NCBI GenBank assembly: GCA_964017185.1
Contig: OZ024876.1
Coordinates: 246,001 to 310,000 of the forward strand
DNA: 64,000 bases
DNA from: Rugalucina vietnamica
Lineage: Eukaryota > Mollusca > Bivalvia > Lucinida > Lucinidae
Direction of reading: 5' to 3'
The position numbers and the translations under genes were made by a program. A model generated the notes under the pieces. It was not told the DNA's origin, searched no databases, and saw nothing but the letters and a program-made list of their open reading frames with translations. Positions within the stretch are counted from its first letter, which is position 1. Every line of letters starts with the position of its first letter. Below are positions 16,692 through 63,825 of this stretch, one piece after another.

Positions 16692-18530
16692 AAAAGGTAC
16701 AAGTCGGCAAAGATCAGGAAAAGGCGCAATCAGAAAAAAATCCCACTCAACGAACCTTAGGTGGGAAAAAACAAACTAACAATCAGGTACTTATACCATG
16801 AAAACATTTCGTAAGCCGAATGAGCAGCTATTTTCCCAATAGGTGGCCGGTCAGTTACCTTAACTTAACTAAAATATGAAAACATACATAAGGCGCCAAC
16901 AGCACAAAAATAATAAACACCAAGACATAAAACAAAAAGAACCACCACAGAAGTATCGACTTGGAACGATCAATAACAAAAAGTTACTGGCGGGCTTAAA
17001 TCGATTTTACACGGCCGTAACCTCACCCTCAGCTACTGCAGTGGTTCATAACATTTAGTTAGTTCTTCGGTCCTCGTGGTGAATCTCTAACTAGTCAATG
17101 AATCATCAAGATCAAACAAATAAATCATGATAAACATCCTGATGAATCAAAAACCAATACTCACAGATTCAGTATGCTGCCCGACGATGGAGATCCCTGG
17201 GCGCCGAATAACTTACTAACTCCGGAGCAAAAGAAAAACATCAGTAAGACCCCGGTGGGCCAAGCAACAGACAAGAAGCTCCGGCCCCAATCAACTAAAA
17301 TGAATAGCTTTAAGTCGGGGCCATCATAGAGTCTGACGCCAAACCCACCGGCGTGCAATTGAAAAAGGCAGCGTAGTTATCAACCATGATTGGGTTAAAA
17401 ACTAAGCATGCAGACCGTCGCATAACATTCAAGTTATAACCTATACGGCTGTAACGTGTTATAATTTTACTAAACTGAAAAGAAAAATCATTACAACCTA
17501 TAAGTTTCTTGAAGAAGATTTATGGCCAAGATGAAAAAAGTCCCTAAATCACAGATTTAGGAGGACAAATTTTTCAAGTTATAATTTTGGGGCTGAATTT
17601 AGCATTTATATGAAAAGAAATATATACACTTTTGTAAATAGAAAAGTTTGGCTGATTTAGCAGAATCCAGATAATGCAACTTACTAATTTCCCAACCCGC
17701 CCCATCTTTGTCAAAAATTTTGAAGTTTATTTTGAACGAAATGTAAGCATATTTGCATAAGATCTTTCAATCTCAAAATTTATTTCTAGGTACATTCCCC
17801 CCGCTAGACCCAGCATGTCCTTTCGACAGTTTATGTGTTTTTCACATATACACATCATATCAACGTGGCATCCTGGGTCTAGGGGGGGGGGGGAACAGGG
17901 TCATCAAGACGAAAATGTGTAATTTTCTGAAATTTTACAAACTAAAGCACTGTTTTTATGGACAATTTTAAAGAAATCAACTGTAGAATTGTAACTAGTC
18001 ATGGTCGTATTTCTTGTCAAACTACTGCCAAGGTGTGTATATTTAGTTTCTGTAGCTGTATAAATAGATATACAGTACATGTTCAAAAGTAAATTTGCTT
18101 TCAATCTATGTGTATTGCACAATGCTTAGAAGTGCAAATTCTCCAAAAAATGTTAAAACCGACATAAATAGTATCACTGACTTTCAAAATATGCCAGAAT
18201 ACACTAACAACAAAGAGCCAGGCCTTTACGTCTTTTAAAGTGACATATTTATCAATTAGGGAGAACTCCCATTTAAGCCATAGATGTCCTTTGTGAACCT
18301 AGTCACCATTAAATTCTGGTTACGAACGGCCCTCATTTAAAAGCGTATTTAACTCAAAATTATATTTGGAAACCAATTCATAGTGTCTACAATAAAATTT
18401 AGAAAAAGGTTTTTCGAAGTTTGTTATACCAATAGTCCTGTTGGAGAAGTTTTGCCGTTAAACATTTATTTCGAGCGTTGACGTCTGTAACATGATTGCA
18501 GACTCTAGCAAACCTAATAAGTTGCGAACT
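16692..18530 (-). mobile_element. Naiad 3' UTR plus RT C-terminus, with an insertion
   Basis: 16,692-17,330 is the full minus-strand 3' UTR, with ACGGCCGT at 17,011-17,018 and AAATCGATTT at 16,998-17,007. 17,331-17,512 encodes the RT C-terminus (FQF...NLNVMR..ACLVLNPIMVDNYA type). After a ~0.77-kb foreign segment the RT continues at 18,288-18,530 with the YELVSKYN and LRK...QQ parts. It ends at an abrupt fusion to a plus-strand tail at about 18,531. Confidence 0.7.
17513..18287. mobile_element. Unidentified insertion in a Naiad RT copy
   Basis: The Naiad sequence breaks after AAGTTTCTT and resumes at TTTGTGAACCTAGTCACC. The interior contains a run of G (about 17,881-17,893) and no recognisable coding sequence. 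Type unknown. Confidence 0.35.
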
Positions 18531-23500: not shown

Positions 23501-24548
23501 CTCAATGTCATTAGACGGTCATTAATGCCTTTTGGCAATCCTGACAGCTTACCAACAAGTTCTGTTTTGATGGCAAAGCCAACTCCTGCTTCACGCCTCT
23601 CTTCACTTTTGCGTCCACTCCAGAAGAAGGTGTATCCAGCACCAACTTCTTTGATCTCCCCAACATCTGCGAACCGAGTCTCACTCAATGCAGCTATCTG
23701 TATATCATACCTCCCAAGTTCTCTGCCCACAAGGGCCGTTCTACGTTGTGGTCTATCTGACCCAGCATTGTCCATTAAAGTACGCACATTCCATGCGCCA
23801 ATCCGTAAGGGGATTACTCTAGCTTTTTTTCTTTGTATTTCGACCGCTTAAGGGGATCCCCGCTGATCGCGGTTAACCAGCCAGGGGGTTTGAAGCAGGC
23901 AATTGTTTAGGGCACCTTTTCTAGCCCCTTCCCCATGCTACGGGGGTGAGCAGTGCGGTCCTAAATAGGTCTGCTCAGTCGCTCAGCCGACTGCCGAATT
24001 CTGCTTACTGCTTCTCCTCACAGAGAACGACCATTAGAACTGAGCCGCCTGTGTGCAGGTCTGCAACTACAGCTCCCAGTGTGTCCTACACCTGCTGCTT
24101 CGCCACTCGCCCATCGCCACAGGACTTTGTAGGTATGTGGGTGCAAGTGTGATGAAATTGTTGTGTATGCAAGTGCTTGTGTGTTGAGAAATAAGATGAC
24201 ATGCGCTATGAAATTGGATTATAGTGAGGAAGAGGTGCGCAACGTCAACCTCACTCTCTAGTCCTCGCCCAGCTGCGCCCAGAGGCAAGACACAGGTCAA
24301 GACGTCTGGAGTTGGGTTTGGATGCAGTGGATGACCGTAACATCTTTAGTGCCTTGTCACGCTCTGCATGTTCCACAACATGTTGCTGTATCGCTTTCTG
24401 AACCGTTGAATCAGGTGATTTCTTCCGCTCCATCTACCGAAACAGTCTTTGCATATCTGGACTAGGCATATCCAGACACACAGGTTTGATTTTGGAGTTT
24501 CCTTCTCCTAGATGAATTGCTGGCCACAGCTGAAGAGCTCCATCTACC
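20561..24548 (-). mobile_element. Full-length non-LTR retrotransposon (APE-type LINE), 3,988 bp
   Basis: The ends are defined by a perfect 12-bp target duplication CTGGAGACAGAT (20,549-20,560 and 24,549-24,560) inside a Naiad RT. On the minus strand it has a ~0.7-kb 5' region that includes CCCCCTGGCTGGTTAACCGC just before the main frame. The single long endonuclease-RT frame follows, and the 3' end is short (GACGAACTATC) without poly(A). An intact frame and perfect duplication indicate a recent insertion. A 5'-region frame (24,433-24,251) begins ERKKSPDSTVQKAIQQHVVE; I do not recognise it. Confidence 0.85.
20596..23847 (-). CDS. LINE ORF2: APE endonuclease + reverse transcriptase + C2H2 finger
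   Basis: The frame is open for ~1,083 codons after a TAA at 23,848-23,850. The conserved start of the endonuclease, RIGAWNVRTLMDN, lies upstream of the first in-frame ATG (23,773-23,775), so translation may start at a non-ATG codon. Numbering from that region, residues 1-235 are the apurinic-type endonuclease: ALSETRF (Glu), LLGDFNARVG (Asp, Asn) and WTDHRLVV (Asp-His). The RT covers roughly 440-800, with SSGKAPGADAIPAEVY, FVDLTKAFDTV (motif A, about 21,900-21,930), NGVKQGCVLAPTLF (B) and LLYADDMD (C, about 21,553-21,575). The last ~35 residues hold a C2H2 finger, CSTCNRQFRARIGLVSHQRTH-like. It nicks DNA and reverse-transcribes its RNA at the target. All catalytic residues are present. The clade (I/RTE-related?) is not resolved. 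Confidence 0.9.
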   Translation of the reverse strand, partial: AVEIQRKKARVIPLRIGAWNVRTLMDNAGSDRPQRRTALVGRELGRYDIQIAALSETRFADVGEIKEVGAGYTFFWSGRKSEERREAGVGFAIKTELVGKLSGLPKGINDRLMTLRLPLSGNKHATIVSAYAPTMTNPDEVKDKFYDDLDNVISATPRTDKLILLGDFNARVGTDHQTWEGVIGPEGVGKCNSNGLLLLRKCAEHDLLITNTVFRLPNRNKTSWMHPRSKHWHLIDYVIVRRTDRQDAKVTKTMCGADCWTDHRLVVSKLNLRIQPARRPQGKKAPKRLDVSKLNKDSMRQDFLTDICNQLDAMNLSSEDPEENWTVFHKTVLSSAASTLGHPSRKHQDWFDENDDEIQRLLEEKHRLHKAHQDDTSSVSKKAAYSNICKTVQTKLRDMQDSWLRKKTEEIQSFADRKDMKKFHDALKTIYGPKSSGATTLLSADGNTLLTDKEAILERWAEHFNSVLNRPSSINEDAIDRLPQIECNVLLDEFPTITETRKAVQQLSSGKAPGADAIPAEVYKAGGLPMAEKLTELFHCMWRKEAIPQEFKDASIIHLYKRKGNPQVCDNHRGISLLSIAGKILAKILLNRLNVHLDQTGLIPESQCGFRKDRGTIDMIFTARQLQEKCQEQNVDLYMTFVDLTKAFDTVSRDGLWKIMAKFGCPPRFIAMVRQFHDGMQARVQNDGEFSEPFEVTNGVKQGCVLAPTLFSMMFSAMLMDAFQDSDTGFPIRYRFDGNIFNLRRLQAKTKVQTDVLDELLYADDMDKNASTETKMQRAMDQVSQSCDNYDLTISTKKTEVVHQPAPGKPYNEPTITVNGQKLKVVDKFTYLGSTLSRAVHIDDEITARIAKASVAFGRLRANVWERNGIKLDTKLKVYKAVVLPTLLYACETWTVYQRHAKRLNHFHLSCLRKLLKIKWQDKIPDTEVLTKAGIQSMHTVLKLAQLRWTGHVIRMPDARLPKKVFYGELQEGKRSQGGQKKRYKDTLKASLKDFEIPMGSWEQTAQERSKWRGLINKGAALYEKKRICEAERKRRERKAKTNVPPSDSMTLTCSTCNRQFRARIGLVSHQRTHQHTSALFKK

Positions 24549-29944: not shown

Positions 29945-30853
29945 TGTATTGCGATGCCTTATCCTTTCTCCTGGATAATATTTATATTAGATTTCGGACC
30001 AAGTTATACAGACAAATTATCAGAATTCCGATGGGTACAAAATGCGCACCTGTCGTAGCTGATTTATTTTTATACTTCTACGAACGAGATTTCATGGATT
30101 CTCTTAACCATGATAATCAAGCTGATGTTATCGAGGCTTTTAATTCACTTCTAGGTACCTCGATGACCTTTTGAACATTGACGACCCTTATTTTGAAGGT
30201 ATGGTCAACCAAATTTATCCACCTGAACTACAGTTGAACAAAGCCAATATCTCAGATACCGAAGCCCACTTTTAGATTTACATCTTTCTGTTTCAAATGG
30301 ATTTGTTTCTTCTGAAATTTATGATAAGCGCAATGACTTTGATTTTGAAAAAGTAAAATTTCCGTTTTAAGATGGTGACGTTCCTCGTCAATCTTCTTAT
30401 GGTGTATATATTTCGCAACTTATTAGGTTTGCTAGAGTTTGCAATCATGTTACAGACATCAACGCTCGAAATAAGTTTTTAACGGCAAAACTTCTCCAAC
30501 AGGGCTATCGGTATCATAAACTTCGATAAACCTTTTCTAAATTTTATCGTAGAAACTATGAATTGATTTCCAAATATAATGTTGGGTTAAAGACGCTTTT
30601 AAGTGAGGGCCTTTCGGAACCTGAATTTAATGGTGACTTGGTTTACAAATTTAAGAACCTTATAGGAAGTAATGATTTTTCTTTTCAGTTCAGAAAAATC
30701 ATAACACGTTACAGACGTATAGGTTATAACTTGAATGGTATGCGATAGTCTGCATGCTTACTTTTTAACCCAATTATGGTTGGTAACTACGCTGCCTTTT
30801 TTAATTGCACGCCGGTGGGTCGGGCGTCAGACTATATGATGGCCCCGACTTAA
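29945..30853 (+). pseudogene. Naiad RT, 5'-truncated (motif B to C-terminus)
   Basis: It starts in DALSFLLDNIYIRF, followed by RIPMGTKCAPVVADLFLYFYERDFMDSLN (motif B and following helix). A frameshift lies in the ADVIEAFNS...LGT region just before motif C (GTACCTCGATGACC). The conserved VNQIYPPELQLNKANI, SYGVYISQLIRFA, YELISKYNVGLKTLLSEGL and NPIMV(D/G)NYAAFFNCTP segments follow, ending at TAA 30,851-30,853. Internal stops and frameshifts make it inactive. It continues directly into its own 3' UTR. Confidence 0.75.
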
Positions 30854-31471
30854 AGCTATTCATTTAAGTTGGTTGGGGCCGGAGCTTTTTGTCAGTTGCT
30901 TGGCCCACCGGGGTCCAACTGGTGTTTTTTTTTAAGCTCCGGAGTTAGTAAGTTATTCAGCGCCCAAGGATCTCTTTCGTTGGGCAGCTTACTCAATCTG
31001 TGAGTCCTGGTTTTTGATTCATCAGGATGTTTATCGTGATTTATTTGTTTGTTCTTGATGATTCATTGACTAGTAAGAGATTCACCACGAGGACCGAAGA
31101 AATAACAAAATGTGATGAACCACTAAAAAAGCTGAGGGTGAGGTTGTGTCCATGTAAAAAGGTACAAGTAGGCAAAGTAGGCAAAACCGGTTTTAGCCCG
31201 CAAGTTATTTTGTGATACTGATCGTTTCTATGCGATCTTTCTGTGGTGGTTCTTTTTGGTTTATGTCTTGGTGTTTAATTTTTTGTGCCGTTGGCGCCAT
31301 ATGTATGTTTTCATATTTTTAGTAAAGTTTAGGTAACTAAGTGGCCACCAATTGAGAAAATACCTGTTTATTCGGATAGCGATATGTTTTCATGGTATAA
31401 GTACTTGATTGTTAATATAGTTTTTTCCACCTCGGTTTTTGGAGTGGGAATCTTTTTCTGATTGCGCCTTT
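30854..31471 (+). mobile_element. Naiad 3' UTR with internal rearrangement
   Basis: A standard 3' UTR runs from GCTATTCATTTAAGTTGG. At 31,157-31,185 the structured block is disrupted by an inserted GGTACAAGTAGGCAAAG tract, the complement of the element's own 3' terminus. The UTR is then cut by a fold-back element at 31,472 and its last bases resume at 32,176 (TTTTCCTGATC). Confidence 0.7.
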
Positions 31472-32175
31472 AGCTAGTATCTCACTGGCATGCGAATTTC
31501 TCGCGACTGTTTTGCGAATTTTGTCGCGGGACTTTCGCACGACATTCGTGCGAGTGTCGCGCGAGTGTCGTGAGAATTTCTTGTGTCACGAACTAGTCGC
31601 GAACTGGTCGCGAAGTTTTTCAACATGTTGAAAAATTTTATGCGAATTTTTTCTCCAAAATATTTCGCAAGACTGTCGCGCGACTGTCGTGCGACGGTCG
31701 CGCGACGTTCGTGCGAGTGTCGCGAACTTGTCGCCGCGAAATTGTGGCGAATTTACAATGCGAAATTTTCGCGACACTCGTACAAATGTCGCGCGAGTGT
31801 CGCACGACGGTCGCGCGACAGTCTTGCGAAAACCTCGCGACTATCTGGCGAGAAAATAAAACTAAGCGACATTCGTACGAATGTCGCGCGACACTCGCAC
31901 GAATGTCGCGCGACTGTCGTACGAATTTAAATGAAAATAAGTTACATTCGCGGGAAAGTCGTGAGACACTCTCACGAATATCGCGCGACTGTCGTGCGAC
32001 AGTCGCGCGATATACTTTCAAAATTAGACTGAAATTCGCGAATTTGTCGCAAAAATGTATATTCAATGAGACTGCAACGTGAAAGTTGTGTTTATATCGT
32101 TTATTTTTGTCGCGAAATAGTCGCGAACTATTCGCAAACTAGTCTCCAGTTGTCGCATTCCAGTGAGATAGGGGC
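31472..32175. mobile_element. Fold-back, TIR-bearing non-autonomous DNA element, 704 bp
   Basis: The ends carry AGC-N3-TATCTCACTGGCATGCGA (from 31,472) and its inverted partner TCGCATTCCAGTGAGATA-N3-GCT (to 32,175). The interior is a mass of short complementary tracts such as GTCGCGCGAC, TCGTGCGAC and TTCGTACGAA, on both strands, giving extensive self-complementarity. It interrupts the Naiad tail GCGCCTTT|...|TTTTCCTGATC, consistent with a 3-bp TTT duplication, although T-runs make that ambiguous. Long frames on both strands are compositional artefacts. No transposase. Confidence 0.7.
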
Positions 32176-32206
32176 TTTTTCCTGATCTTGTACTTTTGAA
32201 TAACAA

Positions 32207-32235
32207 AGCAAATATTATTATTATTATTATTATTA

Positions 32236-32333
<98 letters not shown>
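32207..32333. repeat. Compound microsatellite (ATT)n-(AGT)n
   Basis: An ATT repeat with one T-run interruption spans about 32,207-32,290, followed by AGT repeats to 32,333. It begins about 15 bp after the end of the Naiad tail (TTGTACTTTTG). Published Naiads are reported to favour microsatellite targets. Confidence 0.95.
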
Positions 32334-37009: not shown

Positions 37010-39179
37010 CGAAAAATAGATTCCCTTCCTACATTAATTTCGACAAATGTAGAGAGGAGATTTCATCCGCATTAAATGATTTCGGTAATCGATGATGTAA
37101 ACGAGAGGGTGTTGAGGATAATGCTCTTAAAGAACGGAACAGAAGTATCGTCACTATCGTGGATAAACGTATTAAGTTTTATTCACAGAATACTAATCTT
37201 TGACCTCCTAAACCCAAATCGTCATTTAGGCATTTGAAGCAGGGTATCCCAGAATTTCAAAGAAAGTATGTCTTGGTTCCGGCAGATAAAGCCGCAAACA
37301 ATGTTGTTGTCGTTTGTAGGCTTCACTGCGTTAACACCTCAAAACAGGAGCTCGATGGTACCAGGGCTTATCTGGAGACAGATACTGATGAGGTGTCTGT
37401 AGTTAATGCCCACTTAAACGATTTACCTGGTAAGTTTTCTGTTTGTGTCAATGAAGGCCAAGACAAACTCCTACGATGTATTGGTTACCTAAGCTTCACA
37501 AAAGACCATACAAAGCTAGATTTATTGCAAATTCTAGCTCTAACACTGAACTTTCGAAATTATAAACGTCCTGTCTTACTGCTATCAAATCTTATGTTAT
37601 AAGATACTGTGAGACAGTGTATGAAACTTCAAATAAAAATTGTTTTGGTCAATTAAAAATTCTGGTGAGGTGCTCAGTAAATTGAAGTGTAGAGGGTTCC
37701 GTGCGACAAGCTTGTCCACATATGATTTTTCTACTCTGTATACAACATTACCACATAATCTAATTCAAGAAAAACTTCTGGATTTGATAGAGTGGACCTT
37801 CAAAAGGGCATTAAAAACTATGGTTCACTTTATTTGGCATGTTATGACAGAAAAAGGTACAAGTAGGCAAACTTCAAATAAATATTGGTTTTGGTCAATT
37901 AAAAATTCTTGTGAGGTGCTCAGTAAATTGAAGTGTAGAGGGTTCCGTGCGACAAGCTTGTCCACATATAATTTTTCTACTCTGTATACAACATTACCAC
38001 ATATAACAAATATAACAAACCAATCAGAAAGACAATTTTTAATTTCAATAAACTTGTTTCTGATTTTGATATCCATGCTAATACTCCTAATTCTTGCGAT
38101 TGTAAAGATTCAAAATATGTTTATCAACCAAACCAATTTTTATTTGAATTTTTAATTGACCAAAACCAATTTTTATTTGAAGTCTGATTGGTTTGTAATA
38201 TTTGTAACATATTACCACATACCACGAAGACTTTTTTCACTTCCACTGACCAAAGTCGGTATACACTTTGGTCATGTCCGAATGTGTGCGACGCCTTATC
38301 CTATCTCCTTGAAAATATTTATATAAGATTTGGGACCAAGTTATACAGACAAATTGTTGGAATTCCGATGGGTACAAATTGCGCACCTCCCGTAGCTGAT
38401 TTATTTTTATACTGCTACGAAAGAGATTTCATGGATTCTCTTAACCATGATAATCAAGCTGATGTTATCGAGGCTTTTAATTCCACATCTAGGTACCTCG
38501 ATGACCTTTTGAACATTGACAACCCTTATTTTGAAGGTATTGTCAATCAAATTTATCCACCTGAACTTCAGTTGAACAAAGCCAATATCTCAGATACCGA
38601 TCTACATCTTTCTTCTGCAAATGGATTTGTTTCTTCTAAAATTTATGATAAGCACGATGACTTTGATTTTGATATTGTAAATTTTCCCTTTTGGATGGTG
38701 ACGTTCCTCGTCGTGCTTCTTATGGTGTATACATTTCGCAACTTATAAGGTTTGCTAGAGTCTGCAATCATGTTACAGACTTCAACGCTCGAAATAAATG
38801 TTTAACGGCAAAACTTCTCCAACAGGGCTATCGGTATCATAAACTTCGGAAAGCATTTTCTAAATTTTATCGTAGACACTATGAATTGATTTCCAAATAC
38901 AATGTTGGGTTAAAGACGCTTTTAAGTGAGGACCTTTCGGAACCTGAATTTTATGGTGACTTGGTTAACAAATTTAAAAAAAACTTAAAGGAATTAATGT
39001 TTTTTTCTTTTCAGTTCAGAAAAATCATTACACGTTACAGACGTATAGGTTATAACTTGAATGTTATGCGACAGTCTGCATGCTTAGTTTTGAACCCAAT
39101 CATGGTTGATAACTATGCTGCCTTCTTCAATTGCACGCCGGTGGGTCGGGCGTCAGACGCTATGATGGCCCCGACATAA
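37010..39179 (+). pseudogene. Naiad reverse transcriptase of the main copy, rearranged before motif B
   Basis: The RT begins with the EEISSALNDFGNR region (Trp codon now TGA near 37,094) and KREGVEDNALKE. It continues through KYVLVPADKAANNVVVV, LKQELDGTRAYLETDTDE and RYCETVYETSNK. Motif A (YDFSTLYTTLP, 37,722-37,760) is followed at about 37,848 by a ~370-bp patch that repeats the motif A stretch and a piece of the CxC linker (with TGC) and adds inverted bits. Normal order returns at about 38,222: DALSYLLENIYIRFGTK, GIPMGTNCAPPVADLFLY (B), RYLDDLLNID with both catalytic Asp (38,500-38,505), SYGVYI and NPIMVDNYAAFFNCTPVGRA, stop 39,177-39,179. Frameshifts rule out function. Confidence 0.8.
37848..38221 (+). 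repeat. Mosaic patch inside the RT (template-switch scar)
   Basis: After ATGACAGAAAAAGGTACAAGTAGGCAAA (the last part complements the element's own 3' end), three pieces follow out of order. They are RT TSNKYWFWSIKN...YTTLP again, the linker piece KPIRKTIFNFNKLVSDFDIHANTPNSCDCKDSKYVYQP-like, and an inverted copy of the TTTTTATTTGAA tract. Such patchworks are expected from repeated template jumps during reverse transcription. Confidence 0.7.
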
Positions 39180-40133
39180 AGCTGTTCATTTTAGTTGGTT
39201 GGGGCCGGAGCTTCTTGTCTGTTGCTTGGCCCACCGGGGTCCAACTGATGTTTTGCTCCGGAGTGAGTGGGTTATTCGGCGCCCAGGGATCACCATCGTC
39301 GGGCAGCTTACTCAATCTGTGAGTCCTGGTTTTTGATCTATCAGGACGTTAATCATGATTTATTTGTTTGTTCTTGATGATTCATTGACTAGTTAGAGAT
39401 TCACCACGAGGACCGAAGAACTAACTAAATGTTATGAACCACTGCAGAAGCTGAGGATGAGGTTAGGCGCCTTTAAAACCGGGTTAAGCCCCCCAGTTAT
39501 ATACAACTGACCGTTCCAGGGCGGTACTCCTGTGGTGGTTCGATTTTATACAAGTTATTCCAATTATGTGTTTCATGTTGCATGACTTTGTGGCCATCCC
39601 AATATCAATTGGCTGTTCACTTAGCCCTCTGCATTTACTTGTCCTGTCCAAGATAGCACTGTGACCACCTAACCTTCAACAGCTGCTCACCCTGCTTTCC
39701 GTTATACATGTTTTACGTTGGTATATCTTCCCAACATGATTTTCTTTATTTATTGTTTATATTTGTATATAACAGAACTTCTGCGGAAGCTGAGGGCGAG
39801 GTTAGGCGCCTATAAACTGGTTTAAGCCCGCCAGTAACTTTGTGTTACTGATCGTTCCAAGTCGATACTTCTGTGGTGGTTCTTTTTGTTTTATGTCTTG
39901 GTTTTTAATATTTTTGTGCTGTTGGCGCCTTATGTATGTTTTCATATTTTTAGTTAAGATAAGTGAACTGAGTGGCCACCTATTGGAAAAATAGCTGCTC
40001 ATTCGGCTTACGAAATGTTTTCATGGTGTGGGTACCTGTTGTTAGTTTTTTTTTTTTCCGATCTCGGGTTTTTGGAGTGGGAATCTTTTGCTGATTGCGC
40101 CTTTTCCTGATATTTGCCTACTTGTACCTTCCC
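39180..40133 (+). mobile_element. Naiad 3' UTR of the main copy, composite of subfamilies 2 and 1
   Basis: A normal upstream 3' UTR (39,180-39,430) leads into a subfamily-2 block (39,435-39,780; AGGCGCCT at 39,465-39,472; hairpin CAGTT-ATATAC-AACTG). A subfamily-1 tail follows (39,781-40,133; AGGCGCCT at 39,804-39,811) and ends at TTGCCTACTTGTACC. Confidence 0.75.
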
Positions 40134-41372: not shown

Positions 41373-43105
41373 CAGAGAGGGTGTTGAGGATAATGCTCTT
41401 AAAGAATGGAAAAGAAGTATCTTCACTATCGTGGATATACGTATACAGTTTTATTCACAAAATGCTAATCTTTTACCTCCTAAACCTAAATCGTCATTTA
41501 GGCATTTAAAGCAGGGTATCCAAGAATTTCACAAAAAGTATGTTTTGGTTCCGGCAGACAAAGCCGCAAACAATGTTGTTTTTGTTTGTAGGCTTCACTA
41601 CGTTAACACCTTAAAACAGGAGCTGGATGGTACCAGGGCTTATCTGAGGACAGATACTGATGAGGTGTCTGTAGTAAATGCCCACTTAAACGATTTACCT
41701 GTTAAGTTTCCTGTTTGTGTCAATAAAGGCCAAGACAAACTTCCTACGATGTATTGGTTACCTAAGCTTCACAAAAGACCATACAAAGCATGATTTATTG
41801 CAAATTCTAGCTCTTGTGCTACTACTGAACTTTCTAAATTATTAACTTCCTGTCTTACTGCTATCAAATCTCATGTTATAAGATACTGTGAGACAGTGTA
41901 TGAAACTTCAAATAAAAATTGGTTTTGGTCAATAAAAAATTCTGGTGAGGTGCTCAATAAATTGAAGTGTAGAGGGTTCCGTCCGACGAGCTTGTCCACA
42001 TATGATTTTTCTACTCTGTATACAACTTTACCACATAATCTAATTAAAGAAAAACATCTGGATTTGATAGAGTGGACCTTCAAAAGGGCATTAAAAACTA
42101 TGGTTCACTATGGTTCACTTTATTTGGCCTGTAATGACAGAAAAGTTTTTTTTACTTCCTCTGACAAAGTCGGTATACACTTTGGTCATGTCAGAATGTG
42201 TGCGACGCCTTGTCCTATCTCCTTGATAATATTTATATTAGATTTGGGACCAAGTTATACTGACAAAGTTTTGGAATTCCGATGGGTACAAATTGCGCAC
42301 CTCTCGTAGCTGATTTATTTTTATACTGCTACGAAAGAGATTTCATGGATTCTCTTAACCATGATAATCAAGCTGATGTTATCGAGGCTTTTAATTCCAC
42401 ATCTAGGTACCTCGTTGACCTTTTGAACATTGACAACCCTTATTTCGAAGGTATGGTCAATCAAATTAATCCACCTGAACTTCAGTTTAACAAAGCCAAT
42501 ATCTCAGATACCGAACCCCCCTTTTTAGATCTACATCTTTCTGTTGCAAATGGATTTGTTTCTTCCAAAATTTATGATGAGCGCGATGACTTTGATTTTG
42601 ATATAGTAAATTTTCTTTTTTTTGGATGGTGACGTTCCTCGTCGTGCTTCTTATGGTGTTTACATTTCGCAACTTATTAGGTTTGCTAGAGTCTGCAATC
42701 ATGTTACAGACTTCAACGCTCGAAATAAATGTTTAACGGCAAAACTTCTCCAACAGGGCTATCGGTATCATACACTTTGAAAAACCTTTTCTAAATTGTA
42801 TCGTAGACACTATGAATTGATTTCCAAATATAATGTTGGGTTAAAGACGCTTTTAAGTGAGGGCCTTTCGGAACTTGAATTTTATGGTGACTTAGTTTAC
42901 AAATTTAAGAAACAAAGGAATTAATGATTTTTCTGTTCAGTTCAGAAAAATCAAAACACGTTACAGACGTATAGGTTATAATTTGAATGTTATGCGACAG
43001 TCTGCATGCTTAGTTTTAAACCCAATCATGGTTGATAACTATGCTGCCTTCTTAAATTGCACGCCGGTGGGTCGGGCGTCAGACTCTATGATGGCCCCGA
43101 CTTAA
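41373..43105 (+). pseudogene. Naiad RT, nearly complete, with a mutated catalytic residue
   Basis: It reads REGVEDNALKEWKRSIFTIV, SSFRHLKQGIQEF, VLVPADKAANNVVFV and TMYWLPKLHKRPYKA. TGA replaces an Arg codon near 41,790. Motif A is YDFSTLYTTLPHNLI (42,001 onward), and a frameshift at about 42,165 affects the SSDQSRYTLWSC region. MGTNCAPLVADLFLYCYERD (B) follows. Motif C is RYLVDLL, where the first catalytic Asp is Val (GTT 42,414-42,416). The rest matches SVANGFVSSKIYDERDDFDF, SYGVYISQLIRFARVCNHV and the C-terminus ASDSMMAPT, stop 43,103-43,105. Roughly 580 codons of RT are covered. The motif C change alone would abolish polymerisation. Confidence 0.8.
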
Positions 43106-43730
43106 AGCTATTCATTTTAGTTGGTTGGAGCCGGAGCTTCTTGTCTGTTGCTTGGCCCACCTGGGTCCAACTGGTGTTTTTCTTTTGCTCCGGAGTTAGT
43201 AGGTTATTCGGCGCCCAAGGATCTCCATCGTCGGGCAGCTTACTCAATCTGTGAGTCCTTGTTTTTGATTCATCACGATGTTTATCATGATTTATTTGTT
43301 TGTTCTTGATGATTCGTTGACTAGTTAGAGATTCACCACGAGGACCGAAGAACTTACTAAATGTTATGAACCACTGCAAAAGCAGAGGGTGACGTTAGGA
43401 TCCTGTAAAGCCGGTTTAAGCCCGCCAGTAACTTTGTGTTACTGATCGTTCCAAGGCGATACTTCTGTGGTGTTTCTTTTTGTTTTATGTCTTGGTATTT
43501 AAAATTGTTTGTGCTGTTGGCGCCTTATGTATGTTTTCATATTTTTAATTAAGTTACAGTAACTGAGTGGCCACCTATTGGGAAAATAGCTGCTCATTCG
43601 GCTTACGATATGTTTCATGGTATAAGTGCCTGATTTGTTGGTTTGTTTTTTCCCACCTCGGTTTTTGGAGTGGGAATCTCTTTCTGATTGCGCCTTTTCC
43701 TGATCTTTGCCTACTTGTACCTTTTTCCGT
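43106..43730 (+). mobile_element. Naiad 3' UTR (cleanest plus-strand copy)
   Basis: It follows the RT stop directly and runs without rearrangement to the terminus TTTGCCTACTTGTACCTTTTT. The structured block lies at about 43,369-43,476, with AGGATCCT at 43,397-43,404. It gives the full length of the family's 3' UTR here as about 0.62 kb, shorter than the composite one at 39,180. Confidence 0.8.
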
Positions 43731-52769: not shown

Positions 52770-54735
52770 TTGTTACAAATATAATAAACAAATCAGAAAT
52801 ACTATTTTTAATTTCAATTAACTTGTTTCCGATCTTGATATCCATGCAAAAACTCCTAAGTCTTGAGATTGTAAAGATTCAAAATTTGTTTATCAACCAG
52901 CCGGACATATACTTACTGGAAATTTAAAATAATTTCGGATTTCTAGAATTCGCAAAATTGTTTCTAAAGGTCCGAAGTATAGATTCCCTTCCTACATCAA
53001 TTTCGACAAATGTAGAAAGGAAATGACATCTACATTGAATGATTTCGGTAATCGATGGTGTAAACGAGAGGGTGTTGAGGATAATGCTCTTAAGGAATTG
53101 AAAAGGAGTATATTCACTATCTTGGATAAACGTATAAAGTTTTATTCACATATACTCGTAACTAATCTTTTATTTCCTAAGCCCAAATCGTCATTTAGGC
53201 ATTTGAAGCAGGGTATCCAAGAATTTCAAAGAATGTTTTGGTTCCGGCAGACAAAGCCGCAAACAATTTTGTCGTCGTTTGTTGGCTACTCTACGTTAAC
53301 ACCTTAAAAAACTTAATGTCCTCTTCAACGATTTAACGGTTAAGTTTTCTGTTTGTGTCAATGAAGGCCAAGACAAACTTCATACGATGTACTTGTTACC
53401 TAAGCTTCACAAAAGACCATACAAAGCTAGATTTATTGCAAATTCTAGATCTTGTACTACTACTGAACTTTCTAAATTATTAACTTCCTGTCTTACTGCT
53501 ATCAAATCTAATGTTATAAGATACTGTGAGACAGTGTATGAAACTTCAAATAAAAATTGGTTTTGGTCAATAAAAATTCTGGTGAGGTGCGCAGTAAATT
53601 GAAGTGTAGAGGGTTCCGTGCGACAAGCTTATCCACATATGATTTTTCTACTCTGTATACAACATAACCACACAATTTAATTAAAGAAAAACTTCTGGAT
53701 TAGATAGAGTGGACCTTCAAAAGGGCAATAAAAACAATGGTTCCCTTTATTTGGCACGCAATGACAGAAATGCTTTTTTCACTTCCTCTGACCAAAGTAG
53801 ATATACACTTTGGTCATGTCAGAATGTGTGCGACGCCTTATCTTATCTCCTGAATAATATTTATAGTAGATTTGGGACCAATTTATACAGACAAATTGTT
53901 GAAATTCCGATGGGTACAAATTGCGCACCTGTCGTAGCTGATTTATTTTTATACTGCTACGAAATATATTTCATGGATTCTCTTAACCATGATAATCAAG
54001 CTGATGTTATCGAGGCTTTTAATTCCACTTCTAGGTATCCAGATGACCTTTTGAACATTGACAACCCTTATTTCGAAGGTATGGTCAATCAAATTATCCA
54101 TCTGAACTACAGTTGAACAAAGCCAATATCTCAGATACCGAAGCCCCCTTTTTAGATCTACATCTTTCTGTTGCAAATGGATTTGTTTCTTCTAAAATTT
54201 ATGAGAAGCGCGATAACTTTGATTTTGAAATAGTTAATTTTCCGTTTTTTGATGGTGACGTTCCTGATCGTGCTTCTTATGGTGTATACACTTCGCAACT
54301 TATTAGGTTTGCTAATGTCTGCAATCATGTTACAGACTTCATCGCTCGAAATAAATGTTTAACGGCAAAACTTCTGCAACAGGGCTATCGGTATCATAAA
54401 CTTCGAAAAAAACCTTTTCTAAATTTTATCGTAGACACTATGAATTGATTTTCAAATATAATGTTGGGTTAAGGACGCTTTTAAGTGAGGGCCTTTCGGA
54501 ACCTGAATTTTATGTAACTTGGTTTATAAATTTAAGAAATTAATTTGAATTAATGATTTTTCTTTCAGTTCAGAAAAATCATATCGCATTACAGACACAT
54601 AGGTTATAACTTGTATGTTATGCGACAGTCTGCATGCTTAGTTTTTAACCCAATCATCGTTGATAACTATGCTGCCTTCTTTAATTGCACACCGTCGGGT
54701 CGGGCGTCAGACTCTATGATGGCCCCGACTTTAAG
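52770..54735 (+). pseudogene. Naiad linker + RT, decayed, with TGA in CxC
   Basis: The linker reads FNFN*LVSDLDIHAKTPKS, then TGA (52,864-52,866) GAT TGT, then KDSKFVYQPAGHILTGNLK. The DFGNRWCKREGVEDNALKEL stretch has an intact Trp (53,058). RT parts in order are SSFRHLKQGIQEFQ, LHTMYLLPKLHKRPYKARFI and SNKNWFWSIK, motif A at about 53,640-53,670 (frame broken), LYRQIVEIPMGTNCAPVVAD (B), RYPDDLLNID (C, both Asp present), NGFVSSKIYEKRDNFDFEIV and NPIIVDNYAAFFNCTPSGRA. The usual stop is lost. Several frameshifts. It continues into its 3' UTR. Confidence 0.75.
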
Positions 54736-55012
54736 CTATTCATTTAAGATGGTTGGGGCCGGAGCTTTTTGTCTGTCGCTGGTGTTTTTCTTTTGCTCCG
54801 GAGTAAGTATGTTATTCAGCGCCCAGGTATCTCCATCGTCGGGCAGCTTACTAAATCTGTGAATCCTTGTTTTTGATTCATCAAGATGTTTATCATGACT
54901 TATTTGTTTGTTCTTGATGATACGTTGACTAGTTAGAGATTCACCACGAGGACCGAAGAACTAACTAAATAATATGAACCACTGCAGAAGCTTAGGGTGA
55001 AGTTAGGATCCT
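54736..55012 (+). mobile_element. Naiad 3' UTR, truncated at the palindrome
   Basis: The plus-strand 3' UTR ends exactly after the AGGATCCT palindrome (55,005-55,012, then GTAAAA). The sequence flips there to the minus strand (TGTACAAGTAGCC). Confidence 0.7.
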
Positions 55013-55712
55013 GTAAAATGTACAAGTAGCCAAAGATCAGGAAAAGGCGCAATCAGAAAGGGATTCCCACTCCAAAAACCGAGGTGGGAAAAAAACAAAC
55101 TAACAATCAGGCACTTATACCATGAAACATATCGTAAGCCGAATGAGTAGCTATTTTCCCAATAGGTGGCCACTCAGTTACCTAAGCTTATTCAAAAATA
55201 TGAAAACATACATAAGGCGCCAAAAGCACACAAATTTAAAATACGTAGATACAAGTTACCTTAACTTAATTAAAAATATGAAAACATACATAAGGCGCCA
55301 ACAGCACAAAAAATTTTAAACACCAAGACATAAAACAAAAAGAACCACCACAGAAGTATCGCCTTGGAACGATCAGTAACACAAAGTTACTGGCGAGCTT
55401 AAACCGGTTTTACAGGATCCTAACCTCACCCTCAGTTTCTGCAGCGGTTAATAATATTTAGTAAGTTATTCGGTCCTCGTGGTGAATCTCTAACTAGTCA
55501 ATGAATCATCAAGAACAAACAAGTAAATCATGATAAACATCCTGATGAATCAAAAACAAGGACTCACAGATTGAGTAAGCTGCCCGACGATGGAGATCCC
55601 TGGGCGCCGAATAACCTACTAACTCCGAGGCAAAAGAAAAATACCAGTTGGACCCCGGTGGGCCAAGCAACATACAAGAAGCTCCGGCCCCAACCAACTA
55701 AAACGAATAGCT
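55013..55712 (-). mobile_element. Naiad 3' UTR (minus), with a small internal duplication
   Basis: The tail, structured block (AGGATCCT at 55,414-55,421, AAACCGGTTT beside it) and upstream UTR are all minus strand. A ~60-bp stretch around ATATGAAAACATACATAAGGCGCC is duplicated at 55,199-55,222 and 55,277-55,300. Confidence 0.75.
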
Positions 55713-56700
55713 TTAAGTCGGGGCCATCATAGAGTCTGACGCCCGACCCACCGGCGTGCAATTAAAGAAGGCAGCATAGTTATCAACCATGATTGGGTTA
55801 AAAACTAAGCATGCAGACTGTCGCATAACATTCAAGTTATAACCTATGCGTCTGTAACGTGTTATGATTTTTCTGAACTGAAAAGAAAAATCATTAATTC
55901 CTTTAAGTTTCTTAAATTTGTAAACTAAGTCACCATAAAATTCAGGTTCCGAAAGGCCCTCTCGTAAAAGCGTCTTTAATACAACATTATATTTGGAAAT
56001 CTATTCATAGTGTCTACGATAAAATTTAGAAAAGGGTTTTCGAAGTTTATGATACCGATAGCTCTGTTGGAGAAGTTTTGCCGTTAAACATTTATTTCGA
56101 GCGTTGAAGTCTGTAACATGATTGCAGACTCTAGCAAACCTAATAAGTTGCGAAATGTAAACACCATAAGAAGCACGACGAGGAACGTCACCATCCAAAA
56201 AAGGAAAATTTATTATATCAAAATCGAAGTCATCGCGCTTATCATAAATTTTAGAAGAAACAAATCCATTTGCAACAGAAAGATGTAGATCTAAAAAGGG
56301 GGCTTCGGTATCTGAGATGTTGGCTTTGTTCAACTGAAGTTCATTGGATAAATTTGATTGACCATACCTTCAAAATAAGGGTTGTCAATGTTCAAAAGGT
56401 CATCGAGGTACCTAGATGTGGAATTAAAAGCCTCGATAACATCAGCTTGATTATCATGGTTAAGAGAATCCATGAAATCTCTTTCGTAGCAGTTAAAAAA
56501 CAAATCAGCTACATGAGGTGCGCAATTTGTACCCATCGGAATTCCAACAATTTGTCTGTATAACTTGGTCCCAAATCTACTGTAATATAAATATTATCAA
56601 GGAGATATGACAAGGCGTCGGACACATTCTGACATGACCAAAGTGTATACCGACTTTGGTCAGAGGACACGGACACAGAATTTTGAAAGAGAAGTTTTTT
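55713..56700 (-). pseudogene. Naiad RT, 5'-truncated (before motif B to C-terminus)
   Basis: Read from about 56,700 down: SDQSRYTLWSCQNVSDALSYLLDNIYI-like, GIPMGTNCAPHVADLFFNCY (B), RYLDDLLNIDNPYFEGMVNQ (C, both Asp), NKANISDTEAPFLDLHLSVA, RASYGVYISQLIRFARVCN and LTAKLLQQSYRYHKLRK. The C-terminus ends at TAA (55,713-55,715). Only a few lesions occur (frameshifts near 56,340 and 56,040). It is among the least decayed RT segments here. It is truncated at its 5' end in a non-Naiad flank. Confidence 0.8.
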
Positions 56701-57410: not shown

Positions 57411-57976
57411 AAGGTACAAGTAGGCAAAGATCAGGAAAAGGCGCAATCAGAAAAAGATTCCCACTCCAAAAACCGAGGTGGGAAAAAACCAAACTAACAA
57501 TCAGGTACTTATACCATGAAACATATCGTAAGCCGAATGAGCAGCTATTTTCCCAATAGGTGGCCACTCAGTTACCTTAACTTAACTAAAAATATGAAAA
57601 CATACATAAGGCGCCAACAGCACAAAAAATTTTTAAACACCAAGACATAAAACAAAAAGAACCACTACAGAAGTATCGACTTGGAACGATCAGTAACACA
57701 AAGTTACTGGCGGGCTTAAACCGGTTTTACAGGTACCTAACCTCACCCTCAGCTTCTGCAGTGGTTCACAACATTTAGTTAGTTCTTCGGTCCTCGTGGT
57801 GAATCTCTAACTAGTCAATGAATCATCAAGAACAAACAAATAAATCATGATAAACATCCTGATGAATCAAAAACCAGGACTCACAGATTGAGTAAGCTGC
57901 CCGACGATGGAGATCCCTGGGCGCCGAATAACCTACTAACTCTGGAGCAAAAAAAAAACACCAGTTGGACCCCGGT
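57411..57976 (-). mobile_element. Naiad 3' UTR (minus), cut by a LINE
   Basis: A complete tail with structured block (57,659-57,767) runs to CACCAGTTGGACCCCGGTGG, where the LINE begins. Confidence 0.8.
57659..57767 (-). ncRNA. Conserved structured RNA block of the Naiad pLTR (minus-strand example)
   Basis: The basal arms lie at 57,659-57,673 and 57,753-57,767. The hairpin CAGTAAC/GTTACTG is at 57,691-57,709 and the second hairpin at 57,675-57,690. The palindromes are AGGTACCT (57,731-57,738) and AAACCGGTTT (57,718-57,727). Every element is intact in this copy. Confidence 0.55.
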
Positions 57977-57984
57977 GGACAAAC

Positions 57985-60900
57985 TTGTTGATTCTTATTA
58001 TTTTGGCTGGAGATATAGAAATGAACCCAGGCCCCAGGTTCCAGTGCCGCACGTGCAAGAAGTATTGTAAGGCGGCCGAGAAAGCAGTTAAATGTGAAGA
58101 TTGCGAGAAACGCTTCCATGCGTCTTGCGGAAGTCTTGGTCCCGTTGAGTTACAAAAGATTGAGTCGGGTAATGATTCTTGGTATTGTTCAAACTGCAAA
58201 GCTGAGTGCAGCCTATGCAGTGGTGCTGTTTTGAATTCCCATAAGGCTGTTCAGTGTGACAAATGTGAAATGTGGGTGCACAATAACTGTTCTTTTATGT
58301 CAGACTCAGAGTATGAAGCGATGCAAAACTCAAACTGTACATGGATTTGCCCAAAATGTGACTTTTTCAATTTTTCAGACTCTTTTTTCAATGAACAGTG
58401 TAACTTGGAAAGTGAAAATAGGTTTGACCTACTTGCAAGAGGTCATGAAACCAAGTCCACTGAAACCTTGAATAGCAAAAACAGTTTTATTAGTGGTCTG
58501 AAATTTTCCAGTATCAACATAAACAGTATAAGAGGAAAAAACTTGAGCTGTTGGCCTTCATTGATTTTCATCAATTATCTCAGATTTTGGCGATTCAGGA
58601 AACAAAAATTGACAATTCCATATTAACGTCTGAATTATTTCCGGAATCTTTTCCATACAGCGTGTACAGAAAGGATAGAACCTTAAATGGTGGTGGTCTT
58701 ATGCTTCTTGTACACAAGGACATCCCACACATGCCCCTCACAGAATTGGACAATGACTCAGAGTCAGTTTGGGTCAAACTTTTTATAAATAAGAAAACTC
58801 ACTTTGTGGCTAGCTGCTATCGACCACCTGTCGATGGTCATTTACCAGTATCGGACAATGAAAATGACTTATTGAATTCCCTGGAAAAGTTTGACAATTT
58901 ACTTAGAGAACAGCTTGACAAAATCAAAAATATTAAATAAATAAAGGCAACAAACCCCCCTTAATTCATGTTTTAGGTGATTTTAACTTTAGAGATATTG
59001 TATGGCCGGACAGACTCAGCAAATCTGGGTCATCACTGAGTCAGACGAAGGGTCAGATTTTGATAGATATCATGAATGACCATGGTTTGGAACAATTAGT
59101 CAATTTCCCCACCAGAGAAAGAAATATTTTGGACTTAATTTTGACCTCTCTTCCTGAACAGTTTGTAGACATTCATTCCCCGGATAAGCTCAGTGATCAT
59201 GACATTGTTTCTGGCACATTGAAAATTGCTATCCCCCCTATAAAGAAACCTAGGAGAGAAGTGTATCGTTATCAGAAAGGTGATTATGAATCTATGAGAG
59301 CAGAAACACTTAAATTTGCAAAGGAACGATACTTCAACGGTTACTCAGATACTCGGTCGGTCCAGGAAAATTTCAATCTCATTACATCGTATATTCAGGA
59401 ATCGGCAGATAAACATATCCCCTCAAAAACTAGTCGATCAGTTTCCTCTGTCCCTTGGATAACACCTGAAATAAGAAGGAAGTTTCGCAGAAAAAATGCA
59501 ACTCATGCAAAAGCTAAAAAGACTGGTAGTGCAAAATTTAGATCTAAATTTGAATCTTTACGGAAAGAGATCAAAGCTGATATCAGGAAGCAGCATGATC
59601 TTTATGTGAACAACTTGGTAGGAGATGTTAAGGCTAATCCTAGAGATTTTAACAGGTACATAAACAGTCAGAAAAAAGATACCCAATGTATTCACGCGTT
59701 GAAAACGAGAAATGGAAGTGGAATAGCTCAATCCGAATTTGAGAAGGCGGAAGAATTTAATGGTCAGTTCTCGGATGTTTTCACTAAAAGTGAATACAAA
59801 CAGGTCCCTCTTATGGATAGATCTGCCCCATTCATGCATGATATTGTGGTCACAAAGGAAGGGGTGACCAAACTTCTCAAAGGTCTTAACCCGTCTAAAG
59901 CCTTAGGGCCTGATGAGCTTCATCCCAGAGTCCTAAAAGAACTGGCTATGGAATTAGGGCCGGTATTCGCCCATCTCTTCCAGCAGTCAATACAGGTGAA
60001 ATTCCTAAAGAATGGTCTCTTGCTAATATTTGCCCCCTGTTTAAGAAGGGCGACAGGTCACTTGCCCGCAATTACCGCCCTGTTTCTTTGACATGCATTC
60101 CTTGTAAGCTTCTTGAACATAGTGTATGCTCTAATATTATGGCCCATCTTGATGAACATGAACTCCTGTCGGACAGGCAACAGGCATTTAGGAAATGGCA
60201 TAGCTGTGAAACTCAGTTGACTACAGTGATAAATGACTGGGCCAAAATCTTAGACAAAAAAGGCCAGGTCGACACTTTTATACTCGATTTTGAAAAGGCT
60301 TTCGATACTCCTCCCCATGAACTCCTTAAAAGCAAATTGTTCAGCTATGGAATAGGTGGAACAACACTGAATTGGATAAATGCTTTCCTTTGTTTCAGAC
60401 AACAAAGGGTGGTGGTTAATGGTATTAAATCGGATTGGGCTCCAGTTGTGTCGGGTGTCCCTCAGGGCACCGTTCTCGGCCCCTTACTGTTTTCCTTGTA
60501 TATAAATGACATCTCAGCAGACATCGAGTCTGAAATAAGACTCTTTGCTGATGATTGTGTTTGCAATCGTGAAATCAAGAATGAAGAGGATACATTGAAA
60601 CTTCAAAGAGACATTGATCGCTTAGGCAGTTGGGCTACAAAATGGGGAATGAGATTTCAACCCGTCAAATGCAACATGATGCAGCTGACAAATAAATGGT
60701 CTAGTAAGATACAGGCTAACTACACCCTTGAGGGCACTTTACTGGAAAACGTTGAAAGCATAAAATACCTGGGTGTAACTATCACCAATGATTTGAAATG
60801 GAATACTCATATTTCCAATGTTTGTACAAAGGCTAACAGAACTCTCGGATTCTTGAGGAGAAATTTGTATTCTTGTCCCCCAGATGTGAAAGAAGCAGCT

Positions 60901-61239
60901 TATAAAGGACTGGTGCGGCCAGTCTTGGAATATGGAAGCTCAGTTTGGGACCCTCACACTCATGGCCTCCAGGAAGAGCTGGAAAAGGTCCAAAATCTTG
61001 CGGCAAGTTTTGTGACGGAAAATTATGTTTTTAAAACTGGGAGCATGATTCGCATTTTAGGTCAATTGAAATGGGAATCTCTTAAGAAAAGGAGGAAGGA
61101 TAGTAGACTTATATTGCTATACAAAAGTCTAAAGGGTAAAGCCAGAATACCCACAGATGACCTTATCCCAAAGAATAGGCGTTGTAGAAATCAACACTCT
61201 TTGGCTTTTCAGATACCTTCAGCTAGCAAAGAAGCGTAA
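57985..61239 (+). pseudogene. LINE ORF2-like frame: 2A motif, two PHD fingers, endonuclease, RT (frameshifted)
   Basis: The frame opens with LLILIILAGDIEMNPGP (no ATG; 57,985-58,035). PHD finger 1 follows (CRTCKKYC...CEDCEKRFHASC...WYCSNC, about 58,040-58,200), then finger 2 (CSLCSG...CDKCEMWVHNNC...WICPKC, about 58,207-58,365). After FSSININSIRG a frameshift (near 58,540) leads to the endonuclease: QETKID, GDFNFRDIVW (58,975-59,010) and SDHD (about 59,195). A TAA lies at 58,938. The RT has LNPSKALGPDELHPRVLKEL, another shift near 59,995, NYRPVSLTCIPCKLLEH, ILDFEKAFDTPPHELL (A), SGVPQGTVLGPLLFSLYIND (B) and RLFADDCV (C, about 60,540). Catalytic residues are intact but at least three lesions block translation. 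Confidence 0.85.
58012..58035 (+). other. 2A-like ribosome-skipping motif (DIEMNPGP)
   Basis: DIEMNPGP fits the 2A consensus D(V/I)ExNPG|P exactly and is preceded by a hydrophobic LLILIILAG run. 2A-like motifs are known near the N-terminus of some APE-type LINEs in invertebrates, where they may separate the N-terminal peptide or act as a signal sequence. Activity here is inferred from the motif only. Confidence 0.7.
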
Positions 61240-62954: not shown

Positions 62955-63825
62955 ACTGAGTCTGCAATTATGTTACAAACTTCAACGCTCGAAATAAATG
63001 TTTAACTTCCAAACTTCTCCAATAGGGCTATCGGTATCATAAACTTCGAAATAAAATTTCTAAATTTTATTGTAAACACTATGAAATGACAAGAAGCTCC
63101 GGCCCCAACCAGCTGAAATGAATAGCTTTAAGTTGGGCCATCATAGAGGTGACGCCCGACCCACCGGCGTGCAACTAAGGAAGGCAGCGTAGTTATCAAC
63201 CATGATTGGGTTGAAAACTAAGCATGCAGACTGTCGCATAACATTGAAGTTAACCTATGCGTCTGTAACGTGTTATGATTTTTCTGAACAGAAAAGAAAA
63301 CTCATAACTTTCTATTAGTTTCTTGATTTTGTAAACCAAGTTACCATACAATTCTGGTTCCGAAAGGCCCTCATATAAAAGCGTCCTGAACGCAACATTA
63401 TATTTGGAAATCAATTCATAGTGTCTACGATAAGTTTTAGAAAATGTTTTTCGAAGTTTATGATACCGATAGCCCTGTTGGAGAAGCTTTGCCGTTAAAC
63501 ATTTATTCCGAGCGTTGACGTCTGTTACATTATTGCAGACTCTAGCAAACCTAATAAGTTACGAAGAACGTCACCATCCAAAAAAGGAGAATTTACTATA
63601 TCAAAAACAAAGTCATCGCGCTTATCATAAATTTTAGAAGAAACAAATCCATTTGCAACAGAAAGATGTAGATCTAAAAAAGGGGGTTTCGGTATCTGAG
63701 ATATTGGCTTTGTTCAACTGAAGTTCAGGTGGATATATTTGACCATACCTTCAAAATAAGGGTTGTCAATGTTCCAAAGGTCATTGAGGTACCTAGATGT
63801 GGAATAAAAAGCCTCGATGTATGTT
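62955..63825. pseudogene. Inverted pair of Naiad RT C-terminal fragments
   Basis: Plus-strand 62,955-63,086 encodes the CNHV.NFNARNKCL..KLLQ.GYRYHKL stretch. It then flips to minus-strand 63,088-63,825, which covers the beginning of the 3' UTR back through NPIMVDNYA, LTAKLLQQGYRYHKLRK and the region near NIDNPYFEGMV. At about 63,822 it flips again to a plus-strand tail. Confidence 0.7.

Follow-up and report, generated by a model that had tools for sequence, protein, structure and literature searches.

In a very abundant retrotransposon, a motif of eight nucleotides within the 3' repeat keeps its self-complementarity while its sequence changes, and it does so far beyond chance. This octamer lies in a conserved RNA module on the strand of a reverse-transcriptase-like open reading frame (ORF), and the module resembles a circularly permuted (type P5) twister ribozyme. 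In the window, by which we mean the whole analysed stretch of 64,000 nucleotides, positions 57731-57738 read AGGTACCT. The RNA orientation of octamer and module is the minus strand of the window, and module positions (r) equal 57768 minus the window position. Copies taken from the window and from random stretches, and thus not chosen by the genome pattern introduced below, are called pattern-free. The module is composed of the following parts.

57659..57767, minus strand: conserved RNA module of 109 nt, from alignments of 79 and 68 copies
57753..57767 (r1-15), minus strand: outer stem P5, 5' strand; 15 bp including two G-U, 93.2% of cells paired
57745..57748 (r20-23), minus strand: 3' strand of P2, GGGU, pairing with r53-56
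57741..57744 (r24-27), minus strand: GAGG of internal loop L1, 97% conserved in 33 pattern-free copies
57731..57738 (r30-37), minus strand: palindrome 1, the octamer, AGGTACCT here, with eight palindromic kinds
57718..57727 (r41-50), minus strand: palindrome 2, the decamer, AAACCGGTTT or AAATCGATTT, directly 5' of the AA of UAA
57716..57718 (r50-52), minus strand: UAA; predicted site of twister cleavage between 57718 and 57717
57712..57715 (r53-56), minus strand: 5' strand of P2, GCCC or ACCC, from stem pairing in the alignment
57710..57711 (r57-58), minus strand: GC of loop L2, from Rfam comparison and alignment
57691..57709 (r59-77), minus strand: P3 hairpin; at r65/r71, U-A replaces C-G in 14 of 64 cells
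57675..57690 (r78-93), minus strand: P4 (AUCG/CGAU) with loop L4, UUCCAAGU; U-A to C-G exchange in four rows
57659..57673 (r95-109), minus strand: outer stem P5, 3' strand of the same 15-bp stem

Within the window, copies of a 130-nt context were aligned, which gave 30 rows, 25 of them with a readable octamer. The octamer is incomplete in four of the rows left out (5822, 26196, 5188 and 36055), and in the fifth (61984) the similarity stops within the octamer, which reads GCCCACTT. Perfect palindromes occupy 20 of the 25 readable copies and come in five kinds (AGGCGCCT and AGGTACCT in five copies each, AGGATCCT in four, ATGGCCAT and ACGGCCGT in three each). On realignment this reproduces to the copy the count of an earlier, sequence-only reading of the window, and the pairs which that reading had named recur as well, with GC, UA, CG and AU as the central pair and GC, UA and CG as the second. 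The other five octamers read, on the plus strand of the query, ATGGACAT (two copies), ATGGACAC, AGGCACCT and ATGACCAT (one copy each); in RNA orientation, these five are ATGTCCAT (two copies) and GTGTCCAT, AGGTGCCT and ATGGTCAT (one copy each).

In the 1.09-Gb genome, where the window covers positions 246001-310000 of contig C8, the pattern GAGGGTGAGGTTA-N6-TGTAAAAYCG, which fixes the outer A and T of the octamer and favours well-preserved copies, matches 19,910 times (10,050 + 9,860), and the reversed control pattern gave 0 matches in the same genome. Octamer kinds were read in the 100 pattern matches listed, all of which lie at the start of contig C1. Six perfectly palindromic kinds make up 86 of them (ATGGCCAT 34, AGGTACCT 21, ACGGCCGT 13, AGGATCCT 9, AGGCGCCT 7 and AGGGCCCT 2), compared with 13.8 per 100 expected from independent columns; none of 20,000 column shuffles reached 86, the maximum being 28. 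Each non-palindromic form occurs at most twice among the 100 matches listed. A random sample of 20 stretches of 10 kb (200 kb) was searched by ungapped flank match, with rows of seven to eight flank mismatches (L010, L016 and L025) left out as unrelated, and it contained eight copies, namely three exact palindromes, three that are off by one G-U pair and two that are broken. Window and random copies together, none of them chosen by the pattern, include 22 palindromes in 33. Two further palindromic kinds, AGATATCT (L001:3128) and GGGATCCC (L028), come from the random stretches and bring the kinds seen to eight in total, with all four pairs changed on both sides. After removal of identical cores, 81 of 102 distinct cores remain palindromic.

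The covariation for which the sequence-only reading had proposed to search is present in the octamer. In 68 distinct aligned copies its score is 0.621 as against 0.138 in shuffled columns, none of 500 shuffles reaches it, and 96.0% of octamer cells are paired compared with 70.1% after shuffling; the window's own copy is shifted by 13 bases in this set and cut at one end, and its octamer is complete there. Slid versions of the octamer register score at most 0.357, on two pairs. Chance palindromy is ruled out by the column shuffles and the covariation test. Contrary to two possibilities that the earlier reading had raised against itself, palindromes are the majority both among the well-preserved matches listed and among the pattern-free copies, and the kinds differ from one another by double, symmetric changes. 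On a weakly supported tree built without the octamer columns (54 of its 76 inner branches are open), the palindrome kind must have switched 21 times or more; columns 31, 33, 34 and 36 change 16-23 times versus 1-4 times for columns 30, 32, 35 and 37. These recurrent changes on the weak tree may reflect recombination between copies.

The deviant octamers bear on the nature of the signal. Within a palindrome, a C to T change on one DNA strand is a G to A change on the other, and under neutral decay G-U and A-C forms should therefore be equally frequent. Wobble intermediates with G-U were considered as a signature of RNA, with six G-U forms versus one A-C form among the 100 matches listed, and this is not upheld by the genome counts of one mirror-mutant pair, ATGGTCAT (G-U) with 206 versus ATGACCAT (A-C) with 183. 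As to whether the deviants are INTERMEDIATES, no clear G-U preference appears in the one mirror pair counted genome-wide, and they are thus best read as decayed copies. The missing bias removes one possible RNA signature and leaves the covariation untouched. Three window copies (15393, 15539 and 31136) carry, in RNA orientation, the non-palindromic octamers ATGTCCAT or GTGTCCAT, which are absent from the 100 genome matches listed; these ATGTCCAT-type copies may form a small non-palindromic lineage, a possible exception to the reading as decay.

A second palindrome, the decamer, is found at 3 nt from the octamer and is written AAACCGGUUU in the module. It is self-complementary and covaries, and, like the octamer, it is unable to fold on itself. 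Positions r44/r47 are CG in 61 and TA in 33 of the 102 distinct cores, two thirds of which were found by a pattern requiring C or T at r44, so that 94 cores pair, compared with 53.4 expected if the two positions were independent. In the pattern-free copies they pair in 28 of 33 versus 18.9 expected. The decamer sequence AAACCGGTTT also occurs in the random stretch L025, in a repeat whose units are spaced by about 350 nt and whose flanks are unrelated.

In RNA orientation, the module runs from the 15-bp outer stem through GGGU-GAGG, octamer, GUA, decamer, AA and (G/A)CCC-GC to P3 and P4. Its stems P2-P5 are paired in 92.6-97.0% of cells, and two-sided changes occur in P3 (C-G/U-A), P4 (U-A/C-G) and P5. 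Letter conservation was counted without the pattern-selected copies, which inflate the GAGG figure; in the 33 pattern-free copies it amounts to 97.0% for GAGG, 94.9% for UUCCAAG, 93.9% for AA and 92.9% for the P5 stem, with a core mean of 89.9%.

Twister types including P5 have been described (excerpts of PMC5408937 and PMC10085705). With type P5 the module shares UAA, a P2 of 4 bp, the GC of L2, P3, a P4 that ends in G-C, a loop of the form U-N-CCAAG, GAGG, the outer P5 stem and the circular order. P2 joins GGGU with (G/A)CCC in four pairs beside UAA and GAGG that are 92.6-96.6% paired; this register, GGGU before GAGG, was picked after inspection, and its last pair is mostly U-G (in 68 copies, U-G 49, U-A 13, C-G 1 and unpaired 5). 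It replaced a P2 of AGCU before the first GAGGG, which has mismatches. P4 with its extra G-C pair is 97.0% paired, and L4 with the closing G-C, GUUCCAAGUC, agrees with the Rfam consensus GUCCCAAGCC in 8 of 10 letters. A divergent copy (L036:1484-1592) has the L4 GUCCCAAGGC, which is closer to the twister consensus than the majority. The tertiary contacts fit in part. T1, which comprises three Watson-Crick pairs and an A-A between L4 and L1, is incomplete, the third partner being U-U in 76 of 79 copies, while two G-C pairs are kept in 75 and 78 and the A-A in 77 of the 79. For T2, between the GC of L2 and L4, one pair is C-G in 62 of 67 copies, and the other is variable (in 65 cells, G-U 30, C-G 7, U-G 1 and unpaired 27, with G-G in about one third of copies). 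The module thereby differs from type P5 in the third pair of T1 and in the second of T2 (G-U, C-G or G-G), and further in a P1 that consists of two palindromic strands instead of a cis hairpin and in its sub-threshold score in Rfam.

The only ribozyme match in Rfam is twister-P1, in three copies with 20.2, 22.6 and 20.8 bits versus a gathering threshold of 67.2, and with E values (0.23, 2.8 and 9) at chance level. The low score may result from the permuted order, in which GAGG precedes the P1 region and the outer stem closes the whole. A genome search with Rfam twister-P5 at E 0.001, in which 80 of 21,143 candidates were scored, found nothing, and the control genomes likewise showed no match. 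Because of the sub-threshold scores and the partial tertiary fit, we speak of a twister-like module and not of a twister. Other Rfam matches, to MIR7533, MIR5998, tsr1 and similar families, lie far below gathering and fall on repeats. A descriptor was further derived from the printed Rfam consensus, with a maximum of 27, P3 and P5 unscored and weights chosen by the analyst, and 331 kb including module copies were scanned on both strands and in three orders. In the P5 order, module copies account for 44 placements at 23.5, 15 at 24 and two at 24.5, compared with a best score of 22.5 outside the module; lower-scoring placements are taken to be alternative placements or decayed copies.

Adjacent bases are unable to pair within one hairpin, and base pairing in the octamer, if kept, must therefore join two copies. 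The sequence-only reading had drawn this conclusion for two RNA molecules or two tandem copies, and it is supported by the covariation and by palindromy beyond chance. To the self-complementarity and the proposed pairing between copies are now added the decamer and the twister-like module, both unnoticed before. The octamer is probably an RNA self-recognition site at the tip of the folded twister-like module, where two copies would join. In the proposed mechanism, the octamer, and probably the neighbouring decamer too, would connect two modules, which may belong to separate RNAs or be repeats within a single RNA. Both strands of P1 would then be palindromic, the octamer as its 3' strand and the decamer as its 5' strand at UAA, and P1 would be built between the two copies, octamer with octamer and decamer with decamer, in the manner of helix III in the double hammerheads of Penelope-like elements. 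Model twisters can cleave without P1 (excerpts of PMC5408937), and that P1 is maintained here points to a function in pairing itself. Changes in the palindromes would persist only if symmetric, which would give rise to subfamilies with different pairing codes. AGGATCCT takes the place of AGGTACCT in two window copies with ORF parts 96.5-96.6% identical to the reference, so the pairing code can shift with almost no change in the protein, and a code specific to the subfamily would follow. This points to RNA pairing as the means by which the element recognises its own kind. More tentatively, the module might be a dimeric, permuted twister-like ribozyme whose fold is completed between copies of the same subfamily, with the palindromes as a kin-recognition code against rivals and decayed copies; we entertain this possibility with some reserve.

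Predicted folding energies favour the dimer for the seven palindromic kinds tried, by -5.9 to -15.1 kcal/mol. Four broken octamers folded as dimers gain 6.6-9.5 kcal/mol, above the intact ACGGCCGT (5.9), and given this overlap between broken controls and intact kinds, folding energy alone decides nothing. The predicted minimum-energy fold of the reference monomer pairs GGUG/CGCC and GGUU/AGCC, not the twister P2; pairs of the GGGU type appear in the dimer fold and in some variant monomer folds, not in the reference monomer. The consensus fold contains GGUU/AACC, which takes two letters of the twister loop GAGG, is paired in most of the 79 copies and could present the octamer in a loop. Folds of single sequences vary by kind.

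Double (dimeric) hammerhead ribozymes of Penelope-like elements (PLEs) were reportedly described by Lunse et al. in 2017. The sequence-only reading had seen no hammerhead here, and Rfam agrees: no hammerhead model matches the window, either at the gathering threshold or with E relaxed to 10. In the proposed reading, the module has in common with the PLE double hammerheads that a ribozyme-type module lies in the repeats of a retroelement, that tandem repeats supply the second copy and that a weak terminal stem is combined with a palindromic loop merging between copies. It differs from them in its twister-like fold without an Rfam hammerhead and in its palindrome, which is 8 nt long, comes in at least eight kinds and has a second palindrome as its neighbour. 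The hammerheads of PLEs usually occur without helix III (excerpts of PMC6155905), and double hammerheads, those of PLEs included, require a palindromic stem III loop and tandem copies (excerpts of PMC6466107). Given the covarying decamer and the module resembling a permuted twister, the nearest precedent is the PLE double hammerhead and not a retroviral packaging signal. Among the open-access papers listed by full-text searches, no title or beginning of an abstract described a twister or a palindromic pairing code in Penelope-like elements. Dimeric hammerheads are already known from PLEs. The 19,910 copies with intact flanks supply natural compensatory mutants of the pairing site, with eight kinds seen so far, and they make it possible to test directly how specific dimers are, whether cleavage needs a dimer and whether there is any kin recognition. 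If the twister reading is true, a second ribozyme class would do the job of the hammerhead in a similar element, by means of the same palindrome trick.

Palindromy and covariation stand on their own, and they would equally accompany a signal that serves dimerisation or packaging alone, without catalysis; the palindromes would then be a kissing or duplex site resembling the retroviral dimer-initiation site (DIS), and the twister likeness would be a coincidence or a dead relic. Retroviral DIS are six-base palindromes which differ between HIV-1 subtypes, and the octamer resembles them as a self-complementary site, perhaps in a loop, whose sequence varies between lineages while palindromy is kept. 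The RNA of Ty1 also dimerises via kissing loops (PMC5454406). The octamer is distinguished from both by its position in the 3' repeat of another kind of retrotransposon, by the twister-like module, by its length of 8 nt and by the second palindrome. A signal without catalysis would accord with the sub-threshold twister scores and the partial T1 and T2, and also with the 5' ends of the element: none of 106 hit starts falls at the predicted cleavage site (ref 1580-1589), and no ends defined by cleavage were seen. It accords less well with GAGG, UUCCAAG and AA being conserved slightly above the P5 stem and the core mean, and with the core letters, which in their order and spacing come closer to a P5 twister than the other sequence scanned does. 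We consider such a signal rather unlikely.

Two explanations do without RNA pairing. Dimeric DNA-binding proteins typically bind palindromes, and a protein of the element or the host, with a specificity shifting per subfamily, might bind the octamer as DNA; the missing bias of G-U over A-C, which gives RNA no support, is in line with this. We judge it improbable in view of the eight kinds that use all four central pairs, of a kind that differs already between copies at 96.5-96.6% ORF identity, and of the other columns of the surrounding module, which covary as RNA stems. Template switching, for its part, can correct short quasi-palindromes, and a mutation or conversion bias of this type, or by fold-back, could perfect a short palindrome without selection and would fit the absence of any non-palindromic form above two among the 100 matches listed. 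An 8-nt palindrome without a loop would, however, be a poor substrate for fold-back, and non-palindromes persist, both in the 206 and 183 genomic copies of the mirror pair and in the three ATGTCCAT-type window copies, which makes this bias very improbable.

In most copies the 3' end of the element that carries the module varies by no more than a few bases: of 108 hit ends, 58 lie at ref 1890-1893, and the reference itself was cut at 1893 after comparison of eight copies. Hit starts cluster at the 5' edge of the module (19 of 106 at ref 1530-1549, with a few rows from overlapping stretches). The module start is also where similarity to at least one other family sets in; upstream of it, the members of that family have a different sequence that they share among themselves. 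The part of the reverse-transcriptase-like ORF comprises 422 aa with YLDD and no in-frame TGA. A Pfam search of the ORF pieces gave no match for it and nothing informative. It has 5,812 homologues; among the 120 listed, two carry source names, both 'hypothetical protein'. The element may be a Naiad, a Penelope-like element. Close homologues of the ORF, P0021 (81%) and P0039 (77%), stand in records of Candidatus Thiodiazotropha MAGs and are probably host DNA in symbiont assemblies; they point to a lucinid or another bivalve as the host. The search for relatives in genome contigs of other species found one distant reverse transcriptase (L077), without the motif, and that in viral contigs found none.

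A related copy in the window has a match to a SECIS element upstream of its module, above gathering.

17268..17335, minus strand: SECIS element of the related copy, Rfam SECIS_1, 36.2 bits

Further SECIS_1 matches, below gathering (26.5-34.4 bits), lie at 30828-30895, 39154-39221, 43080-43147, 54708-54775, 55671-55738 and 63088-63153. Six of the seven matches are followed by a module or module start on the same strand, the exception being 63088-63153, and on the strength of these matches the ORF of the retrotransposon may use selenocysteine.

Other repeats of the window were noted in passing. The studied copy adjoins a fragmented LINE on the plus strand (57985-61239), with PHD-finger-like, endonuclease and reverse-transcriptase pieces as read by eye, and an open frame of 1,063 aa on the minus strand (20596-23787) appears by eye to encode a LINE-type endonuclease and reverse transcriptase. 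Positions 31671-32333 hold imperfect repeats of 11 and 22 nt of the GTCGCGCGAC type, followed by runs of the trinucleotides TAT and TAG.
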